NCBI GenBank assembly: GCA_946803715.1
Contig: CAMPET010000429.1
Location: 1-36,289, forward strand
Direction of reading: 5' to 3'
Source: Beroe ovata
Taxonomy: Eukaryota; Ctenophora; Nuda; Beroida; Beroidae
Length of the DNA: 36,289 nt
A program made the translations under genes and the position numbers. The number at the start of each line of letters is the position of its first letter. The stretch's first letter is position 1. The notes beneath the pieces were generated by a model. That model was not told the origin of the DNA. It saw only the letters and a program-made list of their open reading frames with translations, and searched no databases. Positions 1-35,539 of this stretch are shown here, piece by piece.

Positions 1-1036
1 AGCGAAGCAGTACCTACGCTTCAGCCTGCTGCAGTTGAAAAATTTCCGGACTCCTTTTGTCTATTGATGATAGACTCTTTGAAGAATTTCATTTATAATT
101 GTGCAATGTGCATGCGCAAATAATCATTGTGCAAGAAATCATCACTGCGCTTGCTGCTTTGAGGCTTGCATCAATGCGTCAGCTGGGCCTTGCATCGCCA
201 GGAAAGGGTCCTATGGCAAATCAATCAAGGAACACCAGAAAATTATGCTCATCTTATTCTATTGAAAATCACAAATCTGCAGTAGCGATCAGCAACTCTG
301 CAAAGTTTATCCATATCAAATCTTGAAGGCCTTTGGAAATCCATGTCATCACATTTTGTTCTTCCATACAATAGGTTCTGTAACCCGGAGCAGGATTCTG
401 GGGGCGCAGCCCCAAGAAGCCAGAGAGATAATTGCTTTGACCTGCCAAATTTTGAAGGTTTTCAGATTACTTTTTCCTTAACTCTAAAACTTGACAGGCT
501 CCATAATCTGAAGCAGGAGTTGTTATTGTCATTCATGTCAAAACCCGAATATGGTTTGACATTATTGCACTTGCCATAAGCCATTCAAAGTCAGGCTTAG
601 AATCAAGCTTGAAGCTTAAAATTGGAGTTTGTTCAGCTTATTTGGAGTCTATTTTCACCCATGGTCTAAAAGTAAACCAGTGATGTTGAAGAGTTTAAGT
701 GCATCAAATTGAATAAATATAGCCCATACACCTTGTAGGTTACCAATCAACTCAATAGGTTACCAATCAACTTTTATGAATGCAGTACTTGGAGCCCAAA
801 ACCACCATTTCTCAGTATGTTAGTGCCTCAAAAACTTCGGCCAAACTTCGGCATAATTTTGCCGAAGCCGAAGCCGAAGCCGAATGTCAAAAAAGTGCCG
901 AAGTTTGCCGAAGCCGAAGCCGAAGCCGAAGCTTCGGTCGTTTCATGCCACCCCTTAACATGGACTATTATAATAACTAGCAATCAATTATATCATTATG
1001 TGCCATCATCATTAGTTGATGGCTCATGTGTCACAG
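1..1036. other. upstream region, no gene identified
   Basis: I see no convincing exon here, although the first readable exon of the cystine-knot gene (starting at 1037) is not a start exon, so a 5' exon with signal peptide must lie in this stretch or before the window. The only clear structure is the GCCGAA hexamer array listed separately. Confidence 0.5.
861..934. repeat. GCCGAA hexanucleotide microsatellite
   Basis: Two blocks of the hexamer GCCGAA (about 861-884 and 897-934) are separated by a short AT-rich spacer. The inverted form TTCGGC flanks both sides (838-852 and 931-937), so the array could fold. The small ORFs across it (Glu-Ala or Lys-Pro repeats) are products of the repeat and not genes. 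Confidence 0.9.
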
Positions 1037-4000
1037 GTTCTACGGTTTTGACCCATCAGACGATAGCAATGCACCACAAATCGATGTCTGCTACAAGGTG
1101 GTAGAAGTGAAGAGGTGTCAAGAGGGCGAGACTGAGGTTAGCTGCAGTAACGAGTGGTATTTGACAAATTATATATAGTTCTTAGTGATAAGCTTCAGAT
1201 TTGGTTCCTATGGGTGATAATTTTTCGATGAGTCGGTATAATCATTCGCTATCAGTGCGAAACCTGCTGCAGAATTGAATTGATAACTGATAAGGTGTCC
1301 CTAATTTTGGTGTACTTTATTCCTAATTAACCCCAATTCAAATATCTCGAGGTATAACTCCCAAACTCTTGTAGGTAACTGTAGTGGTGGAGGATAGTGT
1401 GACTATCAGTGCTGAAGATCCAGACTCTAACCTCGACAACGAAAACCTCGTCGCGGGAAGCACTGACGGGTCAGATACTGCCAAGAGAATCCTCATCAAG
1501 TTCAACCCAGAATCCTTCGATAGTGGTGAATATCATGATACCTCATAATATATCCTTTCCATATCTAGAGATACGTATGCCATCACGTGATAGCTGCCTT
1601 TTCAATTCTTGTCACTCCGTAGAAATTGTGCAACTTGATAGCTACTCCGTCATAATGTGTCATGTCACGTGACATTTCTCTAACCACGTGATTATTTGCA
1701 GCTAAATACGACATAACCACAACAACAAGTGCATGGATACACCTCACCATTGATACCTTCACTGACGGCACTCCAACCGACAACTCCTTCACCGTCAAAA
1801 CTGTGAGTTATTGCATTCTATCCGAGCCCGTGTTTTATCCAAACCCGTGAAGTGTGTGTTTCCTTGTCCGAGTGTGTGATGACGTCATTATACCGTTGCT
1901 AGGTAACGGAAGACTGGACCGAGGAGTCAGCAACCTGGACCTCGTCGTCTACCTCTAGTGACGATGGAGTAGAGGTTTCAACATTCGAGGTTCCAGCCCA
2001 CCAGCCTGGACGAACACCTATCGTGGTAAGCATCAATCCGATACAATCAGTTTCTTAGGAATATTGACAGCTTTTCTGAGGAATATTTTGTTGCCATCAT
2101 CTGGCCCTGAGCCAATGATATATCTAACCGAATGTTGACACCCGTCACAGATTGAGCTGACAGAGGCTGATGTAAGCAAACTGCTGTTCGAGGACAGTGG
2201 TGTCATGATCATCAACGACAACGAGGATACATCTGGTGTCAAGATTCCTGAATTCTTCAGCAAAGGTGGCTGTAACTTCCCTGTGCTTTTCGAGTATTTG
2301 GGATACTTCCGTTGACAAAAACCTTCTTATTTCGACCCCCTTTGATTCCAGTACCACTCTACCTTTAGATACGAGTAGCACGAACAAGCCGACTCTCAAA
2401 GTTTGCATCCCCGAGTTGCCGACGACGACCTCACCCACACCGACATTCACTCCTACCTTCACTTCCGCCTCTTCGACAACTTCCGAACCTCCAGTCCTCA
2501 CCAACTGTACCATACCAGACGGTAAGTAGCGGCGTGATAATCTAGTGCTAGTTGCATGCTGTGGCGTGATTTTCCAATCTCGACTGTACCCCACGGCGTG
2601 TTCTATTCGACTCACCGATGTTCAGGTGGCGACAGGGTGGTTATCGATATTTCCAAGTATATCGAGATACAGAAGGACCCAACATCCGGTGTGGGAGATA
2701 ACTACATCCAGATTGGTCAGACAAAGGACAGCGGGGAGAAGATCGTCCTGATGTATTTCGACCTCATCCAGGCAGTATTGGATGCTGGAGTCGATCCAGC
2801 CCAGATCACTGTCACTGACTCGAGAATCAACTTCAGGTAAGTGGTGTGTCTGATTGTCACGTGTGTTATCGCGCTTGAGTTGCTATGGTTACACCACCCT
2901 GGTCCTCAGGTTGTCTTCTGTTGAGGATGGTAATGACGACCCTTGGGTCGCTGGTCGACCTGTGATCTACCCTCTGAGGTCGCTGTTCAACCCTGAGGAG
3001 AATGATTATGACTGGGAAAACCCATGGGAAGGTAAGATCAATACTCGTATACTCAGGGTTGTTCTTCGTTTTATTAAATCGCTTCCGTGTTCCATGTTGT
3101 CAAAGTAAGTCCATCTGAAGCAGTAACACATTAACACGTCCTATTGCAGGTGGAGATGGGCCGGAGCCAACATCAGACTACCTGGTGACAGTGAACACCA
3201 TCTTCAAGCAACTCAACAAGAAACCTGAGATAGGCCGCTGGTTGCAGGGAATTACAACCAACATTGTCCGCTACTTCTTCACTGATGTAGCGGAAGTTAA
3301 GAAGGTGAGCTTCCCAATCTCCAAAAAGCTAGGATTCTTTAGTCTAATTTATTCATTTATCCTGCCTCTGACCCTGTTTTCCTCTGGCAGTGCTAGTAAT
3401 ACTCGTTCTAACGTCACCCTCCTTTCTCCAGTCTAACAACGGTTTCTTGATGAAGTATGTTCCGACTGAATCAGGAGAAACTGCCTCACACTTCGTCACT
3501 TTCGATTCCCCCAACTTTGACGATGAGGAATTCCGACCATTCATGGACATCTGCTATCTACCAGGTAAATGTAGACTCTAGAGGAGTTGTGGTTATGCTG
3601 TCTGGATGCTCATTTCTCATCATGGAACACCCCCCTCTCCATTCATACGAACTATTCCCCCTCACCACGCACTCCTCAGTTGAATACCCCATCACGTGTG
3701 AGGAGGGAGAACTCAAGATTTACGACCTGGTTGCGGACACGTACATCGCTCCCGATCACGCTGTCCACGGAGACGAACAATGGCTGCTCGTCGGTAACTC
3801 CGGGTGGAACGGCAAAGCCCGGTCTCTCCTGGAGTACGATATGGGAACATTCAACACGGAGCTGACGGAGCTGTTTGACGATGCTCAGTCGGTGTATCTG
3901 AGACTGTGGTATGATGGTCCGGTCATGGGCAAACCGTACAACGATCCTCAGATGATTGAGAGAAATGTTGCCGCACACAAGGTTAGTGCGAGCAAAGAAT

Positions 4001-5211
4001 TGTGAAGGTTTCCTGGAACCAAGGGTTGAAGAACACTTTGGAACCTTCTATTTTCACACAATGAATTTGATTTTCTCCAGGTCCGTAAATCGTGGAACGA
4101 GAACTACGCAACGAACACCAAGAACATTGAGAAGGGAAGCTGGGGAAGTCACATGATGGAGGAAGGTGTGGACTATGTCAGTGACATTGTGGACGCTGTC
4201 AAATTCCAGGACGGCCAAGGCAAACACTTTGCATACGTGAGTGTTAAAAGATCGCGAGGATATGACTGCTATCCTTATACTAATTTATCACTTCATTCCT
4301 TCATCATTCCTTCATCTTTCTCCTTTAATCATTCCTTACTCATTCCTAGACTCCCCTTGAACAGTGACATAATATTCTAACCCCACTCCCCCCCTCAGTG
4401 GAACCTCACAGCTGTTTTCACCGAATGGATGGAAGACACGTCCAGCGCGTACGGTGTTGTCCTCAAGGACAACCTCCACGAGAGTATACCTGGAATGTAC
4501 CTCAAGTTCTCTTCCACAAACCCATCCCTATCGGAACCTGATCAGAGTCACCCCACTCTCAAACCCAAGCTCATGGTCTGTCAGAAACCGGCCAAATGCG
4601 AGCCAGTCGATGAGGATCCTCAGGTGTATTTCGACGAGGATTCGTGCGTCTCGAGCAATGTCACTCTCAACAGATGTGTCGCAAAGAATGGAGCTTGCAG
4701 TAACACCATGGCCAGTCAAGAGGATATAGATAACGGGTTCTACACTGGCGTGAGCGCGCTATGGGATAGTCATCACGTGGTATGTGTTGCCATGGTAACG
4801 CGTGTGTGCTCACGCAGTATAATTGCGAGTAATTTTGGCAACGCCCAACGACAACTCTGATGCTCAATTCAGCTACATTTCAGCTGAGAACGTTCTGTAA
4901 GTGTTGTGTTGAAGCTGAAACCGAAGTCAAGGAAGTTCCGATGGACTGCTCTGGCTCACCGAGTAACAAGCCAAACTACACAGCTCAGGTAACAGCTCAC
5001 ACCTGACTAACAACATGTCTCGCTATGACATCCGTGCTGTTAGTGTTACAGAATCCATGATATAACATTCCCTTCCCTTCAGATGCAATATATCAAGACG
5101 TGCGAGTGTCAGGCTTGCCAGGAAGTTTCCAGTACAAGGAAGAAGCGAGCCACTCCGAGCAAGACACGATTGCTCCTGCGATCTGCTCTTAAATCCATCC
5201 TCAAAACGTAG
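1037..5211 (+). CDS. secreted protein with three DNRLRE-like modules and a C-terminal cystine knot (5' partial)
   Basis: Fifteen exons join in frame: 1037-1136, 1375-1525, 1702-1802, 1903-2025, 2151-2265, 2369-2521, 2626-2836, 2910-3031, 3150-3304, 3432-3564, 3680-3981, 4081-4236, 4399-4779, 4884-4988, 5083-5211 (stop TAG). They give about 811 residues without a start. The chain holds three related beta-rich modules of DNRLRE type, with signatures such as SNLDNENLVAG, GDNYIQIGQ and DEQWLLVGNSG followed by an R/K-(I/S)-L-(I/L)-x-(F/Y) strand. Each module ends in a cysteine motif (LKVCIPE, MDICYLP, LMVCQKP). Modules 1 and 2 are joined by a Thr/Ser/Pro-rich linker likely to be O-glycosylated. 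The last three exons form a CTCK-like cystine knot: DSC, NVTLNRC, GAC, FCKCC, MDC and finally CECQACQ. The tail is very basic and carries RKKR, a furin-like site. It is probably an extracellular matrix or mucus-type protein that dimerises through the knot. Family identity of the modules is by pattern only. Function is unknown. Confidence 0.85.
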
Positions 5212-6293
5212 TTTTTGGGGGAAATTTGCTCGTCCGTGACCTTGATCGAGTGTTAGATATGAAGTGTATTGAAAAACCTTAGTTTTACATGAGACATTAA
5301 AAGAACGGCAGTCATGAATCTTAATTTAGCAGTTGTTTTTAAACTTACACGCCCCTTTAATCGATTTGTTATGGGTTGCGATCTCCAAATTTAACGCATT
5401 GATCAAGTTCTTTTGTAAGTGTTGCTGTTCAATTGTGTGAAACTGAAATTTAATGGTTGTCAAACTGAACCCAGTCTATAACTTGTCATGCTGACTGCTG
5501 AATAGTGATACTAAAACTAATTGCTCGGGCAGAAGCAGATTATTCGCGCTGGAAGCGCTCTTGAACTGGCAACTCAGCCAAATTTTGGCATCTCAATATG
5601 CCCCATGTCACAAAATTCTGGTATTCATGTTTGGTTCTCGTAACGCGCGATAACGCAAGCACAGAGAACCATCACGCGTCCTGCACAAGCTTCACGCACG
5701 CTAACCGCGCGGCGCGTTGGTTTGAGGCCGCGCGCACGTACGTTTTTATTTTACAGAAGTTGAGATTCAGGGGAGCAAAGTTGAATGAAAATAATACAAA
5801 ATCAAACTACAAATGTTCTTTCATTGAATTCTATGATCAAAGACCACAACAATATCTTCATTTTTTCAGCATCATATTCAAAAACACATCAAATCCACAT
5901 ATTTACACAGTATACACACGTATCCTAAGACATTCCTTTGTATGTATAACGTAGTGTTTAAATGAAAATGATACAGCTTAGCATGATTGTTCGGCTAAAG
6001 CTGCACACGTGACCAGTGATGATACCATTCCCCCTCAATGTCGAAACTCTTCCATTTTCCATGTCTTCCAAATCCACAAACACTATTAATATCCAATATC
6101 CATGTCTGATCTAGTGGCATCAATGACAGTCGAGTGATGCCTGCCCATAAACAGCAGTTGAATGATGACAGCAGATTGATGACACACTGACAGGAGTGTC
6201 TCTCAACCGATGACAATATCACCACAAAAGACAGTCCTTGATGAAAAGGTGACACGGAGTCCTCTGATAAAGTTTAAAACAGTGGGGGTGTGA
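5212..6293. other. convergent 3' intergenic region
   Basis: This stretch lies between the 3' ends of the cystine-knot gene and the dynein light chain gene. An ATTAAA at about 5296 could serve as the polyadenylation signal of the former. A CpG-rich patch at about 5639-5745 (many CGCG) has no ORF of interest. I see nothing else. Confidence 0.6.
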
Positions 6294-7363
6294 TCACTCG
6301 TAGTACACACCGTACACCACTCCGACAGCGAATAGCGACTCGTTGTGATATTCGTACTGAGCGAACCTGCGAACATGGAGGTTAGCAGCTGGGATACATA
6401 CTACACAGTAAAATCAGCTTCTCGAGTTATCATGGTCGGTATGCCAAGAAAGTGGAAAATTGAGTGTAGCGCTCATTACCTGTCGTATTGAGGGTACCAC
6501 AGACATCTAGACGCCACTCTCGCTCCCTGACCATAGTTGGCCCCAATGATCACCAACACAACTATCTTAAACCGGTTGTTACTGCCCAGCTCTGCTTTGA
6601 CCTACAACGGATCGTGTGAAAAGCAGAGAGGATGAATTTGGGGTTGATATCGAGCTTGACCCACCATTGATAGGTGAAAATTTGACATTATATTCTCAGT
6701 ATCCACTATCCCCAGCATCCACACTCTCATCAAAATGAACATGTTCGTACCTGAGTTTTGACTGATTCCGTGATCTGAATGGTGAGCTTATTGCACGTCT
6801 CTCCGTTATACTTAGCATCCAGGAGATGGGTTAGGAACGTGTTTTTGAGGATGTCTTCAGCCTTCTTAGTCGGGAATTTCTGACTGTCCTTGGGTGCGAG
6901 TTGGAACGTGTTCTCGTACACCACAGTCGGCCCTTTGTTCACCTCCTGCGGAAAACAGTGTCAGGATTGATGAAGGAGTAGTGTCGTGAGGAATGTAGAC
7001 TGTGTGCAGCGATCGACGTCAGAATTATTTGACTCGTAATATCTTATTGCATGTTTGAATGTCTGGAATGAGCGATTGAATTACGCGTAAGAATTCACTC
7101 ATATTAATGCCATGTCTCGACATGTGGCATGTGACATGTGTCATCTTAATGTTGTTATAATGACACATACACACCATGACATACAACATGACTATCCCGC
7201 GGTAACCATGACAACGGTTTCATGACACCACCACCACCGTGTCCCGATAATTGACACCACTTACTTCGTCCCCTCCAGATGATGAAGCACCTGACTTAGA
7301 ATCTCGTCTTTGGGACAGAATGAGCGAAGACACCTTCCTCTTAAACAAACCGCGTAGTGCCAT
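6294..7363 (-). CDS. Tctex1-type dynein light chain (DYNLT5/TCTEX1D1-like), form with the proximal first exon
   Basis: Exons read on the minus strand are 7363-7265 (ATG, 33 codons), 6945-6751 (65 codons, phase 0), 6601-6480 and 6366-6294 (stop TGA), giving 162 residues. The last three exons encode a full Tctex1 domain. It opens with YENTFQL, then FPTKKAEDILKNTF, then the beta strands FKIVVLVIIGAN, SRCLWYPQYD and the closing SLFAVGVVYGVYYE. These match the TCTEX1D1/DYNLT5 pattern (ENTYQL, IGSRCLWDP, SLFALANVYAVYFE, from memory of the family). Such proteins dimerise and bind dynein intermediate chains or act in cilia. The first exon supplies a basic, Ser-rich tail with the motif RRDS. Five more upstream exons on the same strand can replace it (listed separately). 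The choice among DYNLT subfamilies is uncertain. Confidence 0.9.
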
Positions 7364-7789
7364 GGTAACTACTACAGTTTACAGAAAATTGTGCAAGTTT
7401 GTCAAGAAGTAGACGTGCAATTGCTTGGCAAAACATAGCACGTTCTACTTGATATGAAGTGTAAACACGTCAAATTGAATGGTAGTGCAGGGAGGGAGAG
7501 AGAGTGGGGTAAGGGGGCATAGAGTGTCGCTTAGCAACGCGCGTCTAACAACTCAACCAGCATACAACATGAACAGTTAAAATTCAATTAAACAATACAT
7601 ACAGTGATTGGAGATTCTAATACGAATATAGCAATATATTAAAAGCGATTTGAAGAAAAAACATACGCGTATTGCATTGAGTGAGCTGACAAGCATAGGT
7701 CAAAAGAGTACTTGCAAATCAGCATGCAACACCAGCTCCCGACGACCGATCTCACACACAAATAACAGTGCTAGAACACATAACACATA

Positions 7790-7975
7790 ACACATGGATA
7801 CACACACGGACACACGGACACACGGATAAAGATATAGTCGAACGGACGAAAACATGAACGCACAATCGGATACAGATATCGCATAACACAAACGGACACA
7901 CAGAAGCGGACAAACACAAAACAAATACAGATACACACAAACACACAAACACAAACACGCACAAACACACGAACA
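7790..7975. repeat. ACAC/ACACGG-rich simple repeat
   Basis: This is degenerate CA-rich low-complexity DNA with repeated ACACGGAC and ACACAAAC units. The Cys/Val-rich ORFs on the minus strand here are artefacts of the repeat. It lies between first exons 1A and 1B of the dynein light chain gene. Confidence 0.85.
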
Positions 7976-8539
7976 GAGATGAGGCGCACAAAATGGAAGA
8001 AGGTATCACTTGCAGTGACATTTGTGTGTGTCTCTGTGAGCATGGCAGCGGTGGTCATTGGTATCAATCGGAGCCAATAGCAGACCTGCATTCACAGGAA
8101 CTCATGACCAATCAGAGACCTGAGATTCAGGACCTCCAACCAATCACAGAGCTTGTTAGAGTCACTCTGAGCCAATGAACAGTAAGATATCAAGTGATAT
8201 GGTGCCACTATTTCAGTTGAGAACATAGTTCTGATGTAACAGGATCTCCCCTCATTAATTCATTAATGCTAGCACCAACCAAGGTCCAACGGACCATAAG
8301 TGTTAACTAGGTACTTAGTTATGATGGACATGATGATCAATGAATATAGAAGTTTTACCATACACTGTATCATGTGGGATGAAAAACATGAACTTCGATT
8401 GGAGACAAAGGCGGGGAGGGTTGCACTTACAAAATACTCGTCTCTACCTATCTGACAGTTGAACCAGATGGCCCAACTTTTTGACAGAAAATGTGTATAC
8501 TATTTTGTGTGTAGTGTGTAAATTATGCGTACTATGTAT

Positions 8540-8745
8540 CATGGATCATGCATATTGTTCATACAATGTACAATGTACATAGTGGATACAATACATAGAA
8601 TACACATTTTATACAATAATTTACACAATGTATAGTGTCTGTGTACATTGTACAATGTATACAATATGTCGTGTGTACATAATGTACACTGTGTACATTT
8701 TACATCATGTACAGTGTACATTGTGAAATGCACGAAATGTACTGT
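8540..8745. repeat. TGTACA/ACATTGTACA palindromic minisatellite
   Basis: The tract is a degenerate array of the self-complementary words TGTACA, ACAATGTACA and GTATAC. Similar DNA occurs at about 35540-35695. It begins immediately downstream (in gene orientation) of the donor site of first exon 1B, so it sits at the start of that exon's intron. Confidence 0.8.
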
Positions 8746-8751
8746 GTATAC

Positions 8752-8868
8752 CTCCTCAGTAGTGCTCTCCGTCTCAGATCGACTCGGTCTCAGGTTTTGC
8801 AGGACGCTCACTTTCTTTACCACATTTTTGAAGCTGAACTTCTTCTTTTCCAATAAATTAGCCAGCAT
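8752..8868 (-). CDS. alternative first exon 1B of the Tctex1 gene
   Basis: This 39-codon exon begins with ATG at 8868 and ends ...STTEE at a GTATAC donor in phase 0, so it joins the constant exon at 6945 in frame. It encodes MLANLLEKKKF followed by FKNVVKKVSVLQNLR, then a Ser/Thr/Glu-rich end. The core resembles exon 1C (FKNVVRRVSTIQNLR), which argues for real coding sequence rather than chance. No Tctex1 exons lie between it and exon 1A, so it has no other partner nearby. The codon preceding the frame extension is TTG, so the ATG at 8868 is the likely start. Confidence 0.75.
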
Positions 8869-9874
8869 CTTCGGATTCAACGAAACTACAAAAACAAAAT
8901 TCTAAGTCGGACAAACTAATGAAAACGTAAAATAGCGGAATAGAATCTTCAAACGTTCTATCGGTGGCAATTTTTTAAATTTATAATGCCATCTGGTGTA
9001 CCAACGTCCAACATTCCTGTCAATCAATCAAGCCTACAATAAGACTGGTATTGTTCTTGTACAATAAGAATACATGAGTCGGAAATATGGATTGTCAAAG
9101 AGCGGAATCGTGCCCTAGCGCATACGAGCAATGGTGAAAGCAGAGACTCGAGATTGTGTAACGTGTTGATATCACGTGATATCACGTGATACCACATATC
9201 CGGACGTGCATAGTGGAAATTCCCACACAATCGTCACGGCTCACGGAGTGAAGGGAAAAACTGTTAAATGTTCAATTTCATTTGCAACAAATGAAAAACT
9301 CAGAAATATGTGTGTTTCTTTATACCTGCACATATGTATATTTAAAACAGCCGATATAGCTCTACTATATCCACATTACACTATCACAAAGCTGCTGCTA
9401 CTTTTGTGCGCAAAACAGAACATTATAAAGTTTGTGATTTGGAGAGACAAGATGTTTAAATAACACAGACACAATAATATAATTGTGATATTCTCTCTTC
9501 CCGAAATGAGTTGTCCAGCGCTCCATGCGCTGCTTGACGATATAAATTGTGATCTGGAAACTGCAGGGGAAGTTACCGCTGCAAAGTTATCCAGCGAGCT
9601 CATTTGCAAAGTTATATTGTGTAGTATATCTACAAGTATGATACTGCTCGCTACATTGCTACATTGTGGCAGTGGGAGCATGGTTATTTTGAACTTCATT
9701 GATAAGTTCTGTATTCATTTCACAACCTATTACAGCTTGATATTATGATGACACTCCCAACTTGATTCATTAATCCCTCCTCACAATTGTCTTTCCCTCC
9801 ACAAGTGTTATCCTCTTCTTACGACACTGTGTATCACGTGTTGCCCATATAAGGTAATCACGTGTGTCACTCAC

Positions 9875-10012
9875 CTCATCCCCCACACTGCTCCTTGTTT
9901 CTGACAGGGTATCGGACCGATTGCGGAGATGAGCCAGTCCACCGGTCGTCCGGAGATTCTGTATCGTGCTTACCCGCCGCACCACGTTCTTGAACGTGAA
10001 CTTCCGGTTCAT
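9875..10012 (-). CDS. alternative first exon 1C of the Tctex1 gene
   Basis: This 46-codon exon starts with ATG at 10012 and ends ...SSVGDE at a consensus GTGAGT donor in phase 0. The encoded segment opens MNRKFTFKNVVRRVS and continues IQNLRTTGG. It carries RRVS, a basophilic-kinase type site. The end GDE is the same as in exon 1A (GGDE), and the core is shared with exon 1B. Joined to 6945-6294 it would give a protein of 175 residues. Confidence 0.78.
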
Positions 10013-11605
10013 TTTCACCGCAATCCGCTGTGGTTATTGCAGGAACGCGCGAACGCTAACGGGAAGGAACAGAAAGTAACATATATAGTAAATAAACAAG
10101 TTTTATTGGGTTTTTCAGTTGCATTGTGTGGGTAAAGACTTCGATTTAGCAAACTTGGAAATTTCGATGGAGATAAACACTGGAAAGCACAAGTTATACG
10201 TTGTTGGGACTAACAACCAAGGTTACGAGAAATATATACCGACTGATGATATGCAAACTATCTTCGTTAAATAGTAATGCAATACTGCTTGCTAATGCTT
10301 AATCAAGCATAAAATATGAGAATATTAAACCAAAATTATTGTGAGTATCGTGCAGAAACTAGAAGCTTTGGAAAAAACGTTAAAACACCAACACTCAGTC
10401 GGATTGTAGTGCTATGTAAACTACAAGTCTAGTCAGGAATCCTGGTAATCGAGAGGGCAGGAGAGATCAGTTTAAACAATCTGCTTTATATTGCACGATG
10501 AGGGCAGGGCCGCAGGGAATCATGCGTCCTGCATTCCCCATGTTGATACTGAGTAAATTGATTCATCATTCGACTCATACAAAAATTGTTCTGAGGTTTA
10601 GTAAAATCAGTGAGCGAACGTATCACAGAGACCACGGAGCATTAGAGTATGGGATTATAGCATGGGCTATTACACTATAGTGTGTACCAGCTGAAGTGTA
10701 TTGGAACTCTGTAATATAAAGAGAGAGAGAGGAGTTATCAGCAGTTGAACAATGAGTTGAGTAAAGTGGACACGGTAATGGAGAGGCCTGTAATTGATAG
10801 TTCATAGTTTGTTGCTAATTACCTCACTAATTGCCTCATTAAGTGATTATCTCATATAGTTACTACCACGGTGATGAACTTAGCTATAGATTGATTCTAG
10901 ATGAATGGGAAGAAACGTAAACTGACTCTCTTCTGGTCAAAACCAGAAGAAATTCAAAAGAGAGGGTGTCTTCAGTAATTCACGAGTTTACATTCCATCA
11001 TCGAATAATCAAATTTGAGAACAGTGCTACCCTGGCAGTTTTGAGTGGGAGACCCTCTTGTAAAATCTCATCAAATGCTCCAGCGGACCGCTTTATTGAC
11101 CATCATGGAAACTTCGTGTCAAACTTGCCCATTTACTAGGCAACATAGAGCTTTCCAATTTCTCTGAATGTGAACAAAGGAATGAAAATGGAACTCTACC
11201 CTCAACTTTCGCATTCGTTCACAATAGTTAACTGTTAAGGGCTCCGGTCGGGTGCGAAGCTCCTTCAAACTGTACAATGTTATAGCTATCAGCTCTTCAT
11301 ATGAAGCAGATACCCAAGCAAAAGCTGTTATCGATAACACACACATAGATACAGCCGATACCTCGTGAGTAATAACAACTTGAGGGAAAGTAGTACTCGA
11401 TACATAATAAATGCGTGCGTGTCTGTGAGTGAGTTGAAATGATGAAAACATATCGCTGCCGAGGTGAATGGATTGGTTATAACAGCTGTAGCTCATAGGA
11501 AGGCTGGTACTGGTATTATAGCCTGCTGGCATGGCTGTTGCACACTTAACTTATTTGACACCAAAATACTAATAAACACAACAACAACAGCAACAACTAA
11601 CTCAC

Positions 11606-11758
11606 ATCAAGGAGGGAGGAAGAGGTCCCTGCTGAAGTCCCGGCTGAGTTGAGACCACCTCCGCCCTGGTGGTAGAGACCACCAGATACCATGTGAGACC
11701 ACATGTTGTTACCACGACTACCAGGCTTCACCAGAGTAACCGGACTAGCTTTCTTCAT
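11606..11758 (-). CDS. candidate alternative first exon 1D of the Tctex1 gene
   Basis: This 51-codon stretch starts with ATG at 11758 in a strong context (GCCACCATGAAG) and ends ...SSLLD at a consensus GTGAGT donor in phase 0. The segment begins MKKASPVTLVKPGSR, is Gly/Ser-rich, and has no evident similarity to the other first exons. It is included because of its position in the array, strand, phase, start context and donor. It lacks the RRxS-type motif of its neighbours and is the least certain of the six. Confidence 0.55.
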
Positions 11759-12636
11759 GGTGGCACAAATGTGGTGTCAAGCGGACTGTTGGAGTGGTGT
11801 CAAGAGAGCAAGGGCAAACTGAGAGTTGTTCTGATAGTAAGACTGCTTTCTCTCTCTCTGTTGATGAATTCTGAAGAAGAAGCTGACGATGCGTAGCGAC
11901 GAATAGCAGCCTCTTGTCGAAGGTTGATATGTCAAACTTCACTAAAGTCTGAGACTAGACATAAACGGAATAAAACTGGAATGATCTGCGCACTTTTTCC
12001 ACAGCAGCGAGATACGCTAGACATGTGATAAAGTATATAGAGGGGGATATCATACTTCAGGAAAAAACCGCAATTGTTTCAGCATAACGGTCAATTTAAC
12101 ATGTAGAGATCTGTTCATGCACGTACACACACACACACGTACACATGAACCCACTCTTCTACGGATACTTCTCGGATATTCTCAGATAACGCACCATCAT
12201 TCCCATCTCCAGATGCGTTCCTATCGCTGTTATGACAACGTTATCAATTATCTCATTCGCAACACTCCAATACATTCTTCACACTGTAAAAACAGTCACG
12301 TGGCCCAGCCACACACGGCCCCATTCTTGCATGATGAGTGTCCAGCTGCTTTAGCACGCATGTGTGCCTCGAATCTCTGCGATTCGACACAGGGACGATG
12401 GTCGAAGTATCAGCACTTTCAGTTTATTATTCATTCTGGCCTGATATAAACGGTGTTATGACGAGATGGTATGTGCGCAGCTTTCATAAATGACTCTTGG
12501 TGATAAGTCTCCATATTAGCATGATGGGGTGTCATTATATACTAGAAAATCCGTGAAGTGGACGGGATACACTTAAGAGGACGTAAATTCTAAAAGACAG
12601 CAACACATGAAGTATGTTGGCAAACCAACGAGCTCA

Positions 12637-12800
12637 TTTCACTTTTACCGATACCTACTCAGATCAGAAACTCGAAGAAAAATTTTTGTCCAATTTCCAT
12701 GCAAATACTACGCATCCCTAAGTATTTTTGGACGCTGAATCGATTCCCGGCCGAATTTTGACCCTATCTCGCTCCCCTTAGGAGCTGTTCGTCAGGTGAC
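12637..12800. repeat. interspersed repeat, copy 1
   Basis: About 160 bases, running from a CACTTTTACCGATAC-like start to GTCAGGTGAC, recur as a direct copy at 13181-13340 with an estimated 90 percent identity. No ORF. It is likely a short non-autonomous transposable element or a segmental duplication within the intron between first exons 1D and 1E. Confidence 0.9.
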
Positions 12801-13180
12801 GTCTAACCAAACATATGAGAAAAAATCAAAATTTTCGTCGATTTCCCGATGAGCTAGCTCAAAAATTCCTCAAGATTTAAATTCTACGGCAAAAAAGAGG
12901 TCAGGAACACCTATTTCTAGTATAACCTCTATAAAATAGTTTTTGGCCTTTTTTCGGTATCGGTGTGTCTCATTGATTTTCGCGTTTTGTTGTTTTTGCT
13001 TCCCACAGGTTTGGAATCGTCATTTGGGCGTGGTTTCACGGCAAGTATGAACTTAAATGATCACAAGGAGGGTCGATACTTGTAGAGTGCGAGTAGGAGA
13101 GATGATTTGGTGGTCACCAATGCCAGTTAAATTCTCATTAGAGACCCTCGAAAACAAAGTGTAAAAGTTTGGAGTCACTC

Positions 13181-13340
13181 TTTCATTTTCACCGATACTC
13201 AGATCAGAAACTCGAAGAAAATTTTTTATCCAATTTTCATGCAAATACTACGTAGTCCCACGTATTTTTGGACGCTGGATCGATTCCCAGTCGAATTTTG
13301 ACCCTATCTCGCTCCCCTGAGCAGCTGTTCGTCAGGTGAC
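13181..13340. repeat. interspersed repeat, copy 2
   Basis: Direct copy of 12637-12800. Both copies share ACTCGAAGAAAA, GCAAATACTACG, GACGCTG and the terminal CAGCTGTTCGTCAGG-like end (copy 1 has GAGCTGTTC). Copy 2 ends about 115 bases before the donor of exon 1E. Confidence 0.9.
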
Positions 13341-13455
13341 TTCACAACTATCAGCATGAGACATTCCCATAATATACTATCTAATAATTACTGTCTAATA
13401 ATAACTATACGACTCTGGAACCCCTCCCCCCAATCTGTGTGATACTGTGATGTAC

Positions 13456-13569
13456 CTCTTGTGCAGTGGAACTGTCCGACGTAATGGAAGCCCGGTGTGC
13501 AAGCGATGTCCTTCGCATGGCCGGAGCTATGACCAACTTGGTCAACACTTTCTTCTGCCACAACTTCAT
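13456..13569 (-). CDS. alternative first exon 1E of the Tctex1 gene
   Basis: This 38-codon exon starts with ATG at 13569 and ends ...SSTAQE at a GTACAT donor in phase 0. It begins MKLWQKKVLTKLV and contains MRRTS. It is clearly related to exon 1F, which lies 0.85 kb upstream and has identical length. The conservation at protein level (V/I and L/V exchanges) in two separate copies supports purifying selection on the coding frame. Confidence 0.78.
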
Positions 13570-14205
13570 GTTCCTTTGAGTGATGAGGAGGAAAACACGG
13601 GGAGGAGGAGGCGGAACGAAAAACGAGAGATTGGAAAAGAGTGCGAGAAAGTGTATTGCGTGAAACTCACTATGTACACACAGACACTTCTAATTGTGTT
13701 TTCCGAGTTTAAAACTGTGTTGCCCCTGGCTGATCTCTTTCCATTGGAAATGATTGGAGTCACGTGACACGCATTTCACGTGATCTCAGGGCGGGATATA
13801 ATAGACTCCTCATCTTCAAGAGTCATGAAACTTCTCACATGCAGCAAAACTTCACCATCTTTTTTAGAATCTCTCTCTCTTTTTAACCGCGGCTATGTTA
13901 CAAGTGCACGTATTGTTTTTTGCCTTTCGTCGAGGAATTTTGAAATGCACGTGCTACTCATGGTTATTTTGACGGTGGTTAGTTGCGATCCTGGAATCCA
14001 CAACTGAAAATCCTCGGGATTTGACGTTTTTTAAACATTTGTCAGCATGGCTGATACAAGCTCAAGCTGTTATACAGTATTAAAACTTCCATTGTTTTTA
14101 CTTAATAAAACAATCGGCTATAGTGAAAATTCATGTTTATCATTCAGCAACTCCATTACTGCTATCGAGTCTGTGTCCCACAGAAGAAAAAGTGATCGAG
14201 CTGCG

Positions 14206-14300
14206 TAACACCTTGGTAACAGTGCAGTAACACCTTCGTAACAGTGTAGTTACACCCTGGTAACAGTGTAGTAACACCCTGGTAACATCCTGGTAACAGC
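14206..14300. repeat. GTAACA(N)GTAGTAACACCCTG minisatellite
   Basis: Five or six degenerate units of about 17-20 bases with the core CCTGGTAACAGTGTAGTAACA start directly after the donor of exon 1F. The same core CCTGGTAAC (opposite strand) recurs in a small array near 27580-27660. Confidence 0.85.
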
Positions 14301-14304
14301 TTAC

Positions 14305-14418
14305 CTCGGGAAATGCGCTGCTCCCAGACCCGGAAGTGAGCGAGAGGGTCCGTGACCGACGTCGAATTTCGGTTGCCGTGACAACCTTTGTCAGTATTTT
14401 CTTTTGCCACAACTTCAT
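14305..14418 (-). CDS. alternative first exon 1F of the Tctex1 gene (most distal)
   Basis: This 38-codon exon starts with ATG at 14418 (an in-frame ATG at 14424 would add two residues) and ends ...SSAFPE at a consensus GTAAGC donor in phase 0. It begins MKLWQKKILTKVV and contains RRRSRTLS. It is a paralogue of exon 1E. The transcript would have to skip 1E to 1A and join at 6945, an intron of about 7.4 kb, long for this genome. Confidence 0.78.
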
Positions 14419-15469
14419 TTGCATCAGAGGGATACTAAAGATGGTATTGTACAAGATGGGTCATGAAAATGCAGGAAATGATTTCAACTCCTTGTATTAT
14501 CGTTAGACGATCGATATCAGTTGAAACGTATCGAACAAAAACAGTCGATTAGAACAAAACTACAATATCATCAAAAGCTGAAGTTGTTTCTCTGTACTGT
14601 GACCGCGACATATGAATAAGAAGTAGATATGACAATCAGCAGATTATAGACACGCATCTCATGACAACTTCTGAGACATTGTCATCAAATACTATATTAT
14701 CATGAGAGAGAGAGTGTGTGTGATTGCACGAAGTGTAATGAGCGTCGAGGAGTAAAAAGTTGGCAACGTTTACATCGCATAGTATATATATATATAGTGG
14801 TGCGTGTTTTTCTACTGTATATATGAACTGAACAACTTAATTGGTCGGAAGCTGCGCTAAAACGTCCGAGCTCCAATGACAGACGCTCGACGAGATTAAT
14901 TTGCTTTCTCTCTGAAAATTCCACTCTCTGGAAATATGAGAGAAGATTAGCCGAGCGTGAGAATGTGATGCACTTGTGATGAGCTGACGGCTGCGCTCTG
15001 AGTTTTCGGACTCTCACGTGCTTGTCTAACGACACAGCACGGAACCGAATACAAGAAGAGTCTCCATTTTGGGGAAGGAGCTGGATAATAACAAGAGCTG
15101 CACTAACCCCCCCCCCTACAACTTCTAGAAGAATTGACTTGAGTAGCACTAGCATTGGGATATAGGTGGAGCTCCATTTCAAACTACAGCAATTATCAGG
15201 GTACTCAGAATAGACACCTGTACTCTGTCAACTGTGACAGTATCAGGTGACAAAACTGACTTAGAAGTAGTCCAGCACTATATCTCATGTCTAAATACAA
15301 GTGTGCCACCACTGACCACCACTGACCACCACGTGCCACCCAGGGCATGAGTCATGAGCACACCTCCTCCCCCTCCCTCATTATACTAGTTCATGGAGTT
15401 ACTGATCATAACAGTAACACGTGTAATCTGGTGTAACCATAGTTACACGATGCGTATGACGTATGTTAC

Positions 15470-15863: not shown

Positions 15864-15915
15864 AGAGTGTGTGTGTGTGTGTGNNNNNNNNTATTTGTGT
15901 GTGTGTGTGTTTGTT

Positions 15916-16859: not shown

Positions 16860-18437
16860 GTATTTTCCCCCTGACCGTAATGTGGTTTCATTTACCTCCG
16901 TTACCATTGGCAACTCGCACATAAAATACACATTATACAGATATTATACGTAGCGATTGTAGCAAGTACCAACGACACTAGTAGTATCTATGAGGATGTA
17001 GTTTTGCTCTAATGAGGATCTCCGAGATTATGGAATTATCACTATGGAATGTAGCTTGGCGACATGAGCGTGTGTTTCATCTGTTAAATACATAAAATGA
17101 TGTCACTTCGCACACACGCGAGTCACACATCTAAACACTCAAATTATACTAAGCATAAATGCTATCATATTCACATAGCATGATCAATGACAAATTCCAG
17201 TCCCGTAATTTGCTAAAATTTAACAGCGGTTGCACGGAATTCTGCAACTTTAAGGGTGATAAAGCTCTCTGCTGTTGAAGCAAGGTCGAGGGAACTTAAA
17301 GTATCGTTAGTAGCTAATAAAGCACAGTTAGACAGAAAATTTCCGCTAGACAAAGCGTTGGTCTGAGTTGCAGGAATAATAATTCTATTCGTTATTCTCG
17401 TGAAATAATGCTGAATATTAGAGATAATTAGATCAGCACTCGTATAACCATTTTCGTCTCAGGTACGTTGACCGTCGAATGGGAATTTTATCGGTACATG
17501 TCATTTGGAGAATACGATAACGAAATAAGTTCGACTCTTGCAAAACTCGGTTTTGAACGGTAGATTTGTATGGTATCTGATAAAACGGAATTTTTTGAGC
17601 AATTCATTATGAAAATATGCCGAATTTTAATGATAATGGGGTCGTTTTCAAGGGGAAACCTAAGAAACGCTCGAGAAAAAACCGAGTTCAAAGGAAGCAC
17701 GACTGTTACTGAGCTATGATCTAAGTTACAAATCATTATCATTACAACTGGTAACTACTGGTAAAGTAACATAATGACACTATTCAGTTGTTATGACAAC
17801 ATATACCGGTAGTGATGTTAAAGGGATGGTGGTGGTTACAACTTAACACCACGGTGCATGAATCTGATGGGGAAATCAATGAGGAACGGGTGAATCACTC
17901 GTGACTGACTTAGCAACTCACTATAACTCACTTTACAACACACTACTACTTACCATAGAGATTAGAGGGCGATCCGGGATATGTTATTCATCTATGTGGG
18001 AATGTATCAACTGTCTGCAGTACGCCTCTCCTCTTGAAGCTTTCATATTCAAGAACATTTTGCTACAGCAAAATGTAGTATTAGAGGTAGCTAGATTTGT
18101 AAAAGGTTACATTGATATTGATCATCATATTCTTCGAAAACTGAAAAAGAAATATGAGAAAAAACAAATTCAATGAGGAGAAACGGTAACCTAAAATCAC
18201 AAATATATTCGAGATTCGTACATAGATAACGTAGATACTCAGTTCAGAACTTCGACAATACTAGTTGGATATTCCCTTACTGGTCATGATACGAAATTGT
18301 ATCCAAATCATGTCCTATTCATACAACTCACACAAAACAACTCGACTCTCATATGTCATACTATCACTATCATAAACAAGGCACTATTCACTCATCCTAA
18401 TATCAGTCATACTCGAGTAGGCCCTCATGAAAGTCCC

Positions 18438-21280
<2,843 letters not shown>

Positions 21281-21600
21281 TAACTAGCAGGAATGCAGGA
21301 ATGCTCCTACAAATTTCAGGCAGTAGCATTATGTAAGGCCGTTGCTTACTCCTTATTTTCATTCATTTTGCGCGGTGACGTGGATACTGCCACGATCTTA
21401 ACACCGATACATCTGATTTGACAGAACTGACATAGGGCGTGGGTACAGAATATTAGGTCCTCAAAATTGCATGGGAAACAATGAGCTAGCAAATTTCCAA
21501 GACCCTATCTGACCCTCCATTTGATTATAACTGACATAGGGTGTGATCCTAGTATATTTGACTAGGAGACACTAGGTCATAGAGCCTTTCAAACACAAAA

Positions 21601-21725
21601 ACAGAATCAGCGCTCTTAATTAGGTATGAATTGATGATGAGGGGATAGAAATTTAACTAACAAACAGAATCAGCGCTCTTAATAAGGTAGAAATTGATGA
21701 TAAGGGGATATAAATTTAACTAACA
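21601..21725. repeat. 63-base tandem duplication
   Basis: Two adjacent units, both starting ACAGAATCAGCGCTCTTAAT and ending ATTTAACTAACAA, differ at a few positions. Non-coding. Confidence 0.85.
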
Positions 21726-22737
21726 AACGCCTGAGACCCTTATTATTAGGACCAGTGCTTGATTATAACCGACTTAGGTCATGGTTAGAACCTTCTGACC
21801 TCAATAAATAAATCGTTGCAGATTCCATTTTCGAGGTTCATAAGGCAAAGGCTCTGTGCCAACTGCCAATGTTGATTTTATTCATTTAAGGGCTGGGATA
21901 AGGGTCTCAGGCACTCCCTAACTCAATTTCTATCCCTTAACCATCCTTTTCATTGTATATTAGAGCATTAAATCTATTTCTTGATGTCCAAAAGCTCAGT
22001 CACCATCACCTATGACACCAAGGACAGCACAAACAGTGTTTGTACGGTTCCTCAAACACAGATACAGAAAATAGTAAATAAGTTATTCTCTGGAGTATGT
22101 ACCAGGCACAAAATCATTTATTCTCATCATTAGGTACTTACAGCCATTTTTGCTCTTTTTCATTTAACTGAAAAGGGGCCAGGAATTAGTCTCTTCTCAA
22201 TTTATCATTTTTTTCTGGTTGCAGAACTGATCAATATAGAAGATACAATGAATTTTTGGACCATTGGGGAGAAAATACCTTGTGATGATCATGTCCATCA
22301 TGTAATAGAGCCCTGTCCATCTTACATTCAATTCACCTAAAAAAGTGAACAGAATACAATTGAGTTGATCCTCTTAAAATAAATCGACGACTATCATTGA
22401 GATAAGAGATAAGATAACAATCATGGTATTGAGCCATCACTATTCACACAGGCATTCACACAGGCATTCAAAAAACATTCAAGCAGTAAAATACATATTC
22501 CATGAGCTTCCAACAAACTTTCCAACAAAGTATCAATCAATTTTCATGTGTTTCTGAATGAAGGTATTCTCCTTGTAGCTCGATTTTGAAAATTGCGCGG
22601 CGCGACGGGAGAAGGAGATCCCATAATTACGTTCGCGTAATTTTGAGATGCACGAATTGAATGTGCATCACTTAAATTAAACATTTGTGATTTGAACCCT
22701 GCTCAGTGCTAACTTGGAGCTTTTATACAAATCCCCG

Positions 22738-23061
22738 ATGATAGACCCTGTCGAGATCGAGAATTTCGTTTTGCGCGCGCGGCGCGCAGACTTATTCGCG
22801 GCTTGCATATATCAGCGGCTTAACATCGCCATTCGCCAGACAACCCAAAACAGGCCTCCGATGAAGGCGCGCGGGCCGCGCGCAAAAAACAGTGGACAGA
22901 TAACCTGATAGTATCCGGCGATGCAGGAGTCGAGTTGTCGGGCAATGCCAAACCGCTGATGCAAGCCGCGCGGCGAAGCGGCTTGCGTCAGCAAGCCTGT
23001 CTGAGAATAAGTTTGCGCCGCGCCGCGCGCGCGAAACGAAATTCTCGACAGGGTATATCAT
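22738..23061. mobile_element. 324-base foldback element (MITE-like)
   Basis: The ends are inverted repeats: ATGATAGACCCTGTCGAGA on the left against the reverse complement of the right end, ATGATATACCCTGTCGAGA, both continuing into AATTTCGTTT and a GCGCGC-rich stretch. Weaker inverted similarity runs further inward (CGGCTTGCAT...ATCAGCGG), so most of the element can fold into one hairpin; the right arm has about 40 extra bases. No coding capacity. I could not identify a clear target-site duplication. Confidence 0.8.
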
Positions 23062-23088
23062 TGATCGACAATGCAGAAGCAATGAAAG

Positions 23089-23185
23089 TTGTAGGATTCC
23101 ACCCTACCCTTGCTGGCGGGATTTTATCCCAAGCAAGGGGCGGATTGAAAATCGCGCGCACCGACGGTAGGGTAAAATCCTACAA
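23089..23185. mobile_element. 97-base foldback element with 9-base target-site duplication
   Basis: Terminal inverted repeat TTGTAGGATT...AATCCTACAA with inner arms CCCTACC/GGTAGGG. It is flanked by the perfect direct repeat CAATGAAAG at 23080-23088 and 23186-23194. A 9-base duplication fits Mutator-like and related transposons; the element itself is non-coding and would need a transposase in trans. A second family member is at 32111-32186. Confidence 0.88.
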
Positions 23186-23376
23186 CAATGAAAGCTACAA
23201 TTGCAATGAAGCAGTTCGGTCAGATAAGATTCACTGATTCGACAGTATTATTTTCAATAATCATTTGGCAAACTGCATCACTCGGTTTTGATAAATTGAA
23301 TTATTGTGGACCAGACATGTTCAATATCATTTTTGTTGTTTTTCGTTTGGGTGTTAAAAGCCAACTTCATTTGATA

Positions 23377-23465
23377 TGAGCATTTGCAATACTACCTTTA
23401 TCCTGATTTGAGCATTTGCGATACTATCTTTATCCTGATATGAGCATTTGCAATACTATCTTAAC
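23377..23465. repeat. three-unit tandem repeat of about 33 bases
   Basis: Units contain TGAGCATTTGCAATACTA followed by TCTTTATCCTGAT with few changes. Non-coding. Confidence 0.8.
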
Positions 23466-24338
23466 CCTGTCTTGCATGAGGGCAGGAGTTTCATTGGTAG
23501 GCCATTTGTATTGCCTGGAGTTGTATAGATAGGGTCATGGGAAAAATTCAACAATGTAAATGAAAAGATTCCTCATGCAGACTGACAGATTTGACAAGAA
23601 TAATATGACGGCTGTTTGTCCCATCTGATTGCTGCAATATTTTTACATGACATACTTTACATGACATACTTTACATGACATCAGGAAATTCCACCTTTAT
23701 CTGGCTTCTGACTGCACCCTTAACTTGGAATTGATAAAATTTTGTGTTCCGTATCTTTGGACTGTGTCTTTCTTAACCTATTTAGTCTTTTTATGTTGGT
23801 TTATCTATTTATTTGGTACAACCCTTCCCTTTATTCCTATCTTCATTCCCCATCCATCTAAACTGTGAAGCCTGTAGTTGTAAGCTGTGAGGAATACAGT
23901 GGTTCAAAACCCCTTCGTCTCTCTTGCCACCTGCTGATATTAAGATCCATATCGCAGCTGACAGGAGGGGGCCTTACATCTGTAAGGTGACCACTGATGA
24001 TTCACAATTTAGACTCTTGTGTCAATCCTTGGGATTAGAAAATTGATATCTAGTATTTTGCTATGTTTGCACTTCAATAGATGAGACTTTGGTTTCAATG
24101 TTGAAATTGGCAACAGATAAGAAATTTTATTGATTAAAATAAGAGCTGGGTAGACACTACAAAATCAAGAAATAATCTGCAATTTGATAATATGCAACTA
24201 ACCATTCTAAATTAACTAGCACAAATGTTGTGGAGATTGATATCAAAAATGGTGAGTTATGTATAATTGATTCAAAGTTTGTTTTACATGTTTGAATCTA
24301 ATTTACCTTGTCCACTGTGATCCATCATATCTCCAGGA

Positions 24339-27300: not shown

Positions 27301-27518
27301 TGCTGAAGAAACGGGTTCCACATTAAGTCCGATCAGCACTAAAAACATCCCTCTCACTCTCTATCCGCCAGGTAATCGTGAATCCGCTTCATTCCGGAGG
27401 CGGTGGCGGACACGTCACAGACTCCGAGGAGGAAGAGGAGGAGTCTCGTAGTCACGATAGTGACATCATAGCGGCTCCGTTACAGTTCAGTAAACTGAAC
27501 GCAGAGCATAACAGCTGA
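24339..27518 (+). CDS. single-pass membrane protein with acidic tail, possibly NICE-3/C1orf43 family
   Basis: Exons 24339-24448 (ATG within an exon opening at 24337), 26200-26309, 26384-26540, 26632-26764, 26888-27043, 27145-27231 and 27372-27518 (TGA) total 900 bases, 299 residues. Exon 1 encodes a short luminal start MDQG, one membrane helix (VIAGIALAAVLVISIIILL, then MCWKIRNRK), so a type III topology is likely. The cytosolic part has a helical region (YTYRECIHELSRFLHLLN; LNIYETERR) and then a Ser-rich, strongly acidic tail (VESDDEEEEVPPEV; TDSEEEEEESRSHD) with casein-kinase-2-like sites. Position of the helix, the LRR-free alpha-helical middle and a resemblance of LLDGYETARYG to LNIYETERR suggest C1orf43, a Golgi/mitochondria-linked protein, but I place that at only about 40 percent. 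The gene structure itself is firm: every exon boundary keeps phase. Confidence 0.82.
24449..26199. other. 1.75-kb intron with scattered repeats
   Basis: This is the longest intron of its gene. It contains a 25-base tandem repeat (25158-25216, CTCAGCCCTGGCCTCAAGTG) and at least two copies of the AGAAGTAGTATCTGTAGCTCCC-type motif (about 24955-24995 and 25700-25735) that forms an array at 32738-33300. No exon seen; the ORF at 25428-25817 (-) is unrecognised. Confidence 0.6.
25158..25216. repeat. 25-base tandem repeat
   Basis: Two perfect units of CTCAGCCCTGGCCTCAAGTG+AACCG and the start of a third (CTCAGCCCT). Intronic. Confidence 0.9.
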
Positions 27519-31942: not shown

Positions 31943-32110
31943 TATTTGATAATTGACTTTGAAGCATATACTAGTTATGTATTAAAAAGGTGCATGACAT
32001 ATTAAATTTCCACGGTCAACAATTTATTTTATTGAAGCCACTTACTCAGCGCGAACAATTTGCATTCAGCTTCAGTTGCATGCAATGGTTGCATTTAGTC
32101 ATGAAATTAA

Positions 32111-32186
32111 TTGTAGGGTTTTTCCCTACCGTCGGCGCCGCGCGCAATTTTCATTTCGCCCGCAAGGGTAGGGAAAAATTCTACAA
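32111..32186. mobile_element. 76-base foldback element, second copy of the TTGTAG family
   Basis: Inverted ends TTGTAGGGTTTTTCCCTACC and GGTAGGGAAAAATTCTACAA, the same arms as 23089-23185, with a shared inner GTCGGCGC...ATTTTCATT...CAAGGGTAGGG. The flanking nine bases TGAAATTAA and TAAAATTAT agree at seven positions, so a decayed 9-base duplication is plausible. Confidence 0.85.
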
Positions 32187-32737
32187 TAAAATTATACAAT
32201 CATGAACGAAAAATACTTAGATTTGCGCGCGCGGCTCAGATATCAAAACGGCACCGCGCCGCGCACGAATTACGCACTGCAGTTTTATAGTATGATAATG
32301 TAGTTATTGAGTAGAATAAGGGCGCGCAACGTGCACTCGTGCTTATTTCATTTCCCTAATTTTTTGAAAATCCATATTTTTGTCTCTCTTTAGTGTTTAG
32401 ATAAAACAGACATGAATCGACGTATTTACTATTTAGGGCGATGGATGTGTTCACAGATTTTTGCAATTGGTGACTTTGTTAGATGCATTTCATTGCTCTG
32501 CGGAATTCTATTATCATACAATGAATTTTCAAAGGATGAGAGATTTCTTGAACATTAATTTATTTTGTGATTGATTTTTATATTTTATTTTATTTTGAAT
32601 AGTGGATGCTGAATATATATCAATGTCTCAAATGATACTTTCTCTTTGGGATATCCTTCGTGAAGAAAAGATAATACAAACAAGTACTAGTTTACACCTC
32701 CCTCAAAAAACCCCTTTACTTATAACTCACGAGTCAG

Positions 32738-34961: not shown

Positions 34962-35065
34962 GTAAAAGGATAAGCTACTCCTCATGTGACATCTATCCTA
35001 ACATCTGAGAAGAAATTAGAATTTTCCAGTACACTCAGTTTTTTCTATAAGAAACTCTCTATANT

Positions 35066-35501: not shown

Positions 35502-35539
35502 NTGTCCCCGCTTATATATCTCGCAGCAGGTTTGTACGT

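Follow-up and report, generated by a model that had tools for sequence, protein, structure and literature searches.

Tandem candidate first exons upstream of a single Tctex1 domain in the ctenophore Beroe ovata

Can a dynein light chain gene vary its N-terminus through the choice of its first exon? The question is raised by contig CAMPET010000429.1 of the ctenophore Beroe ovata (assembly GCA_946803715.1), of which positions 1 to 36,289 were analyzed (hereafter the window). An earlier reading made from the sequence alone had noted, on the minus strand, six open reading frames (ORFs) upstream of exons encoding a Tctex1 domain and had proposed that they are alternative first exons feeding this one domain. 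We estimate at roughly 85% the probability that the locus is one ctenophore gene of the Tctex1-type dynein light chain family whose alternative coding first exons are arranged in tandem. Five members of the array are well placed to moderately supported, and the sixth is likely. The products would have one Tctex1 domain in common and differ in their N-terminal tails. First exons are designated below by the start position originally assigned to them.

Six first exons and one constant set

The sequence-only reading had described six minus-strand ORFs of 33 to 51 codons, each beginning with ATG and ending at a phase-0 GT donor; their lengths and donors were re-read as claimed (Table 1). One start was revised. 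The Met at 14418 is the second in-frame Met of the most distal exon, which more likely begins two codons earlier, at 14424, since the homologous protein P0001 aligns Met to Met at this position. The six first exons lie on one strand, in one orientation, and all are in phase 0. The introns implied by the coordinates, up to the acceptor at 6945, are of 319, 1806, 2929, 4660, 6510, and 7359 nucleotides (nt) for exons 7363, 8868, 10012, 11758, 13569, and 14418, respectively. Each first exon would provide its own start codon, a tail of 33 to 51 residues, and a phase-0 donor, and each donor would be spliced to the single acceptor at 6945, so that any intervening first exons are left out.

Table 1. 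Positions of the constant exons, the variable first exons, and a candidate poly(A) signal in the window.
Feature	Position	Strand	Length	Protein sequence	Splice site	Remarks
Variable first exon 1 (most distal)	14305..14424	-	38 codons from Met 14418	MQMKLWQKKILTKVV...FPE	donor GTAAGC at 14304	
Variable first exon 2	13456..13569	-	38 codons	MKLWQKKVLTKLV...AQE	donor GTACAT at 13455	weak donor
Variable first exon 3	11606..11758	-	51 codons	MKKASPVTLVK...SSLLD	donor GTGAGT at 11605	start context GCCACCATG
Variable first exon 4	9875..10012	-	46 codons	MNRKFTFKNVVRRVS...GDE	donor GTGAGT at 9874	
Variable first exon 5	8752..8868	-	39 codons	MLANLLEKKKFSFKNVV...TEE	donor GTATAC at 8751	weak donor
Variable first exon 6 (most proximal)	7265..7363	-	33 codons	MALRGLFKRKVSSLIL...GDE	donor GTAAGT at 7264	
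Constant exon A	6751..6945	-	65 codons		phase-0 acceptor CGCAG/GAG	Tctex1 part begins
Constant exon B	6480..6601	-	122 nt			
Constant exon C	6294..6366	-		ends VYGVYYE		stop TGA
Candidate poly(A) signal AATAAA	5745..5750	-				3' of the constant exons; motif match only

Joining the 7363 exon to the three constant exons in silico gave a protein of 162 residues that matches the Pfam Tctex-1 family (E 5e-24, 84.9 bits; curated cut-off 22.8). The constant set is single. A tblastn search of the window with the three constant exons found only these exons themselves, the next-best match (E 0.053) containing a stop. This bears out the claim that the exons at 6945-6294, with their phase-0 acceptor, are the only downstream Tctex1 exons on the minus strand. 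The same search found no Tctex1 exon between the first exons, in agreement with the earlier statement that the latter are not whole-gene duplicates; the possibility that they are was rejected, as the window is devoid of any further Tctex1 exon. The search of the genome (77.8 Mb in 534 contigs) did not reveal a second copy of this Tctex1 domain. The nearest paralogue, 57% identical in the Tctex1 part, is a single open frame of 212 codons on another contig (C110:223873-224244). It falls in a clade with proteins P0012 and P0014 (98/100), and no leader-like motif was found around it in the stretch examined. Contig C337 carries a further Tctex1 gene, the N-terminus of which resembles, by eye, that of the Mnemiopsis protein P0015.

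To what extent could such an alignment of frames and donors arise by chance? A blind scan for an ATG, at least 30 open codons, and a phase-0 donor scoring at least 3 returned exactly four donors on the minus strand of 18400-6946, all of them belonging to array members (14304, 11605, 9874, and 7264), and none on the plus strand of the same region. None of 200 dinucleotide shuffles of this region reached the observed four (mean 0.61, maximum 3). The scan was not silent elsewhere in the window, since two and four donors were found on the plus strand of 18400-36289 and of 1-6945, respectively (none on the minus strand of 18400-36289 or of 1-6293). Lowering the donor threshold in 18400-6946 to 1 gave 8 minus-strand and 4 plus-strand donors, and lowering it to 0 gave 11 (shuffle mean 3.75, maximum 10) and 8. 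A clear difference between the strands is thus obtained at the strict setting only.

Two pairs of first exons are duplicates, 8868/10012 (z 15.3) and 13569/14418 (z 15.8; 300 shuffles in each case). In both pairs, the third codon position is the most divergent (7, 6, and 14 over 21 codons; 6, 3, and 11 over 21 codons), and identity drops beyond the exon ends. Within this ctenophore lineage, first exons would have been duplicated in tandem, enlarging the array. Genome-wide searches with exons 7363, 10012, 11758, and 13569 matched this contig alone, and exons 8868 and 14418 turned up on the same contig as partners in searches made with other exons. The possibility that the distal exons are parts of other genes was rejected on the basis of the searches with these four of the six exons.

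Two further observations were made in this region. A direct repeat of 148 nt (91% identity) is present between first exons 13569 and 11758, at 12656-12803 and 13196-13343. Upstream of the array, an ATG frame of 21 codons (MSQSSGLSATRRGNSLTSLHQ; 15518-15456, minus strand), followed by a weak GTAACA donor, is a possible further first exon; no support was found for it as an array member.

Tails joined to the domain in relatives

The homologue list comprised 13 proteins, six of which (P0001 to P0006) are close; the only named protein in this first list was from the ctenophore Bolinopsis microptera (56%). The longest contigs encoding P0001 to P0006 are of 915 to 1346 bases, and the frames cross the tail/domain junction unbroken, as in mRNA. 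These contigs are therefore apparently spliced, and we infer that they are transcripts. For P0013 and P0031 (contigs of 2483 and 2535 bases), other sequence flanks constant exon A on both sides, as would be expected of unspliced DNA.

The tail of P0002 is identical to the 7363 exon (33/33) and is joined to EVNKGP, with 6 differences over 126 residues in the constant part. Exon 7363 is the only one with an identical counterpart. P0003 has a tail of the same type (83% over 29 residues; tblastn E 4.7e-12). The tail of P0001 is of the 13569/14418 type (tblastn E 1e-10 to 14424 and 1e-6 to 13569). P0004 resembles 10012 (z 5.8) and 8868 (z 4.9), and P0005 starts at a later Met and has an end like that of P0004. 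P0006 has a tail with weak similarity to 7363 (z 4.6; tblastn E 0.80). In their constant parts, P0001, P0003, and P0004 differ pairwise at 1, 2, and 1 of 126 positions, and 3/126 differences were found for P0005 and P0006. The differences among P0001, P0003, and P0004 are as small as allelic or sister-species differences. Alternative first exons are favored because the relatives carry unlike tails on nearly one domain. As judged from these proteins, two tail types, 7363 and 13569/14418, are clearly attached to the constant domain in relatives, at the junction predicted for the window; for 8868/10012, the case is less certain.

A profile hidden Markov model (HMM) was built from eight relatives' tails (P0001, P0003, P0004, P0006, P0007, P0009, P0010, and P0011), leaving out P0002 because of its near-identity, and also P0005, P0008, and P0012. 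Among 926 stop-to-stop ORFs of the window, the three best matches, all significant, were 7363 (E 4e-7), 14418 (E 6e-5), and 13569 (E 0.0025). The best match in the reversed window (896 ORFs) had an E value of 0.3. A 27-row tree places the window and P0001 to P0006 in one clade (97/94), which nests in a group of 16 rows (99/99) including Bolinopsis and Mnemiopsis proteins; 12 of the 24 inner branches are open. Searches of the genome with the tails of P0006 and of the Bolinopsis protein gave no match, an empty result that carries little weight for this type of search. More distant ctenophore proteins (P0007 to P0011) have the tail KRWQDAIN[RK]VSL in common and differ ahead of it (MMRKKFGGLGQ, MALTVRFEDYKANRRTSLYTT, MPIKFQLSQ, MPLKF, and MVKKVFKLPAG), through either species or splice differences.

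The proposal that alternative first exons feed one Tctex1 domain thus stands for the 7363 and 13569/14418 types and, less surely, for the 8868/10012 type. That all six are used in Beroe is a wider and less firm proposal, since no relative of 11758 was found and the tails of the relatives may reflect use of one member of each duplicate pair. For the types matched in relatives, the distal exons are neither joined to other genes nor unconserved, because relatives join them to the constant domain.

Several points weigh against one gene with alternative tails. The splicing of tails to the domain is evidenced through relatives' proteins alone; the constant domains of these proteins are not fully identical, the proteins may derive from different samples or species, and the relatives may have separate gene copies, one per tail. 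P0004 matches 10012 weakly by tblastn (E 0.11). In the HMM search, 8868 and 10012 ranked fourth and sixth with E values that are singly non-significant (0.062 and 0.47), on either side of an unrelated plus-strand ORF at 26789 (E 0.16). The donors of 8868 and 13569 score 0.07 and 1.36, below the strict setting, and are equaled by 9.4% and 5.1% of the GTs of the window; both exons were retained because they are clear duplicates of 10012 and 14418. The tail encoded by 11758 has no likeness to the other tails (best z 2.8). Finally, no convincing motif is shared upstream of the six exons beyond a CT-repeat 9-mer present in four of them, a frequency equaled in 3% of random sets (about 30% for the 7-, 8-, and 10-mers).

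If the relatives' tail types belonged to separate full genes, the single constant set in Beroe would result from assembly collapse. The few residues by which the constant parts of P0001 to P0006 differ and the fragmentation of the assembly into 534 contigs are compatible with such an event, but the 8 kb from 14424 to 6294 are free of N, the closest gap lying at 15884-15891, and differences across tails are limited to 1-2/126 within P0001, P0003, and P0004. We consider a collapse very improbable. Only slightly less so is the possibility that the first exons are relics, orphaned when duplicated whole genes lost the exons of their Tctex1 domain, and that 7363 alone is used. This exon is indeed the closest to the constant exons and the one found unchanged in P0002, and the donors of 8868 and 13569 are weak. 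However, no trace of further Tctex1 exons was found between the first exons, the frames are open, the duplicates diverge mostly at third codon positions, and tails of the 13569/14418 type, with those of the 8868/10012 type less certainly, are joined to the domain in relatives.

The membership of 11758 calls for separate consideration. No homologue of this exon was found when a query of 90 residues was scored over residues 1-51, its tail was not seen among the 7993 candidates sharing most words in a wider homologue search, it is absent from the matches to the profile of the relatives' tails, and the genome holds no second copy. With its lack of likeness to the other tails, this would be consistent with a true array of five, 11758 being either a fortuitous ORF that happens to end at a convincing donor or a first exon belonging elsewhere, which is possible but doubtful. 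Against this stand its place among the only four donors of the blind scan, its position within the array, with the orientation and phase of the other members, and its start in GCCACCATG; moreover, the Tctex1 exons are the only evident gene downstream on the strand before the candidate poly(A) signal. Exon 11758 is therefore probably a true member of the array.

How a first exon would be chosen

An mRNA begun at one first exon would skip the others, since first exons seldom carry an acceptor. In an acceptor scan, which relied on a generic score, no consistent 3' splice site was found before the six first exons. The best acceptor within 120 nt upstream is ordinary for 7363, 10012, 13569, and 14424, being equaled by 53%, 26%, 59%, and 72% of random places, respectively. 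A good acceptor (top 4% of random places) precedes the ATG of exon 8868 by 17 nt, and 11758 has a fair one (9% of random places). Choice by separate transcription starts is the simplest reading and a likely one, with spliced-leader addition perhaps operating alongside.

A ctenophore-type spliced leader of 27 letters, whose pattern was first recognized from its similarity to the Hormiphora sequence given in PMC8527503, has 257 near-copies in the genome (119 + 138, within 3 mismatches) versus none for the reversed control. Since the genome carries spliced-leader genes, a promoter cannot be assumed at every 5' end. In Hormiphora, 56% of Iso-Seq reads bear the leader, according to the same text (PMC8527503). 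The array could be real and its switch be trans-splicing: one long pre-mRNA begun at an upstream start would receive the leader at an acceptor before any one tail exon, the donor of which would join 6945. The abundance of leader copies relative to the control, the proportion of leader-bearing reads in Hormiphora (PMC8527503), and the acceptors before 8868 and 11758 all favor this type of choice by RNA processing, but the acceptors before the four other exons are ordinary by the generic score, and no leader gene was found in the window. We regard it as unlikely. Four leader loci were viewed: in two (L027 and L029) the leader is followed by GT, and the two others (L028 and L030) run directly into other sequence and could be leader-tagged retrocopies.

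Domain, tails, and comparison with known systems

The named homologues, among the best 7993 candidates sharing most words, are mostly DYNLT5/TCTEX1D1 (Tctex-type 5), with a few DYNLT2B-like proteins. By these names, the predicted product would be a Tctex1-type dynein light chain of the DYNLT5-like type. The best sequence matches of the 7363 form in the PDB were outer-arm LC2 (2.4e-19) and DYNLT2B (4.8e-17), and no DYNLT5 chain was listed. An AlphaFold model of P0002 has a mean predicted local distance difference test score (pLDDT) of 77, with core blocks mostly at 85-97, and contains helices at residues 59-74 and 81-103 and strands at 109-119, 139-146, and 150-160. A Foldseek search with this model yielded 37 matches in the PDB at E <= 0.001, with Tctex-type light chains of axonemes ranking best. 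The model shows no helix in residues 1-40, a low-confidence segment with block means of 56, 51, 44, and 46, and the tail is therefore likely to be flexible. The amphipathic helix that the tail sequence had suggested is not borne out by the model. By eye, most tails, that of 11758 excepted, have basic residues before a serine (RRDS, RRTS, RRRS, RNRS, and RPSRS). Basic residues ahead of serine are a kinase-like pattern. The tails may determine the partners or sites to which a dimeric light chain is directed. A combinatorial code, in which six tails (21 homo- and heterodimers) would be picked cell by cell by start site and spliced-leader acceptor jointly, giving many ciliary or transport addresses, is speculative and in our opinion improbable.

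The comparisons that follow draw on the accessible parts of the papers cited. The likeness to the layout of UGT1 and the clustered protocadherins, suggested by the sequence-only reading, is seen in the single orientation, phase, and constant set and in the two duplicate pairs. The vertebrate UGT1 and GCNT2 loci also have tandem variable first exons in the same phase, spliced to one constant set, providing a variable N-terminus and a common C-terminal part, and they also underwent lineage-specific exon duplication (PMC1885805). They differ from the Beroe locus in that the variable exon encodes a large domain, instead of a short tail of 33-51 codons, and in that a distinct promoter precedes each variable exon, with a conserved upstream motif in UGT1, whereas no common motif was found here (PMC1885805). 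The alpha and gamma protocadherin clusters likewise combine variable first exons with one constant set, but encode cell-surface receptors with large variable ectodomains, in contrast to a small intracellular protein of light-chain type (PMC1885805). The sDscam genes of chelicerates provide an invertebrate example of tandem 5' cassettes, with alternative promoters plus splicing; they encode receptors, and, unlike here, the cassettes consist of two or four exons encoding immunoglobulin domains (PMC4835542).

Within the dynein field, DYNLT5/TCTEX1D1 proteins share with the Beroe product an N-terminal extension ahead of the Tctex1 domain, but one N-terminus is given per listed protein, and no description of a tandem first-exon array was found in the accessible text (PMC8754002). 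According to the same source, DYNLT4 and DYNLT5 are not well characterized, and dynein binding is not established even for human DYNLT5 (PMC8754002). Mammalian Dync1i1/2 are dynein subunit genes with several isoforms each, as proposed here, but they encode intermediate chains, not light chains, and the accessible part of the source does not state a tandem array (PMC2908135). Among the matches listed in the PMC literature, a scope outside which most subscription papers fall, no first-exon array was recognized by title or abstract for a dynein light chain, a Tctex protein, or a ctenophore. The layout itself is known from UGT1, GCNT2, protocadherins, and sDscam; what appears to be new is its carrier, a gene of dynein light chain type.

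The most familiar variable/constant first-exon arrays encode receptors and detoxifying enzymes. If the array operates as proposed, motor-associated proteins, too, can be diversified by tail swaps on a fixed domain. The tails would provide specific handles on a poorly characterized class of light chains, in animals propelled by giant ciliary plates, and the locus offers a clean test case for promoter choice versus choice of spliced-leader acceptor.

Head-to-tail upstream of the array, the minus strand at 18438-21362 contains exons of a RING-finger membrane protein, with Pfam RING matches below the cut-off; we take this protein to resemble RNF121/175.

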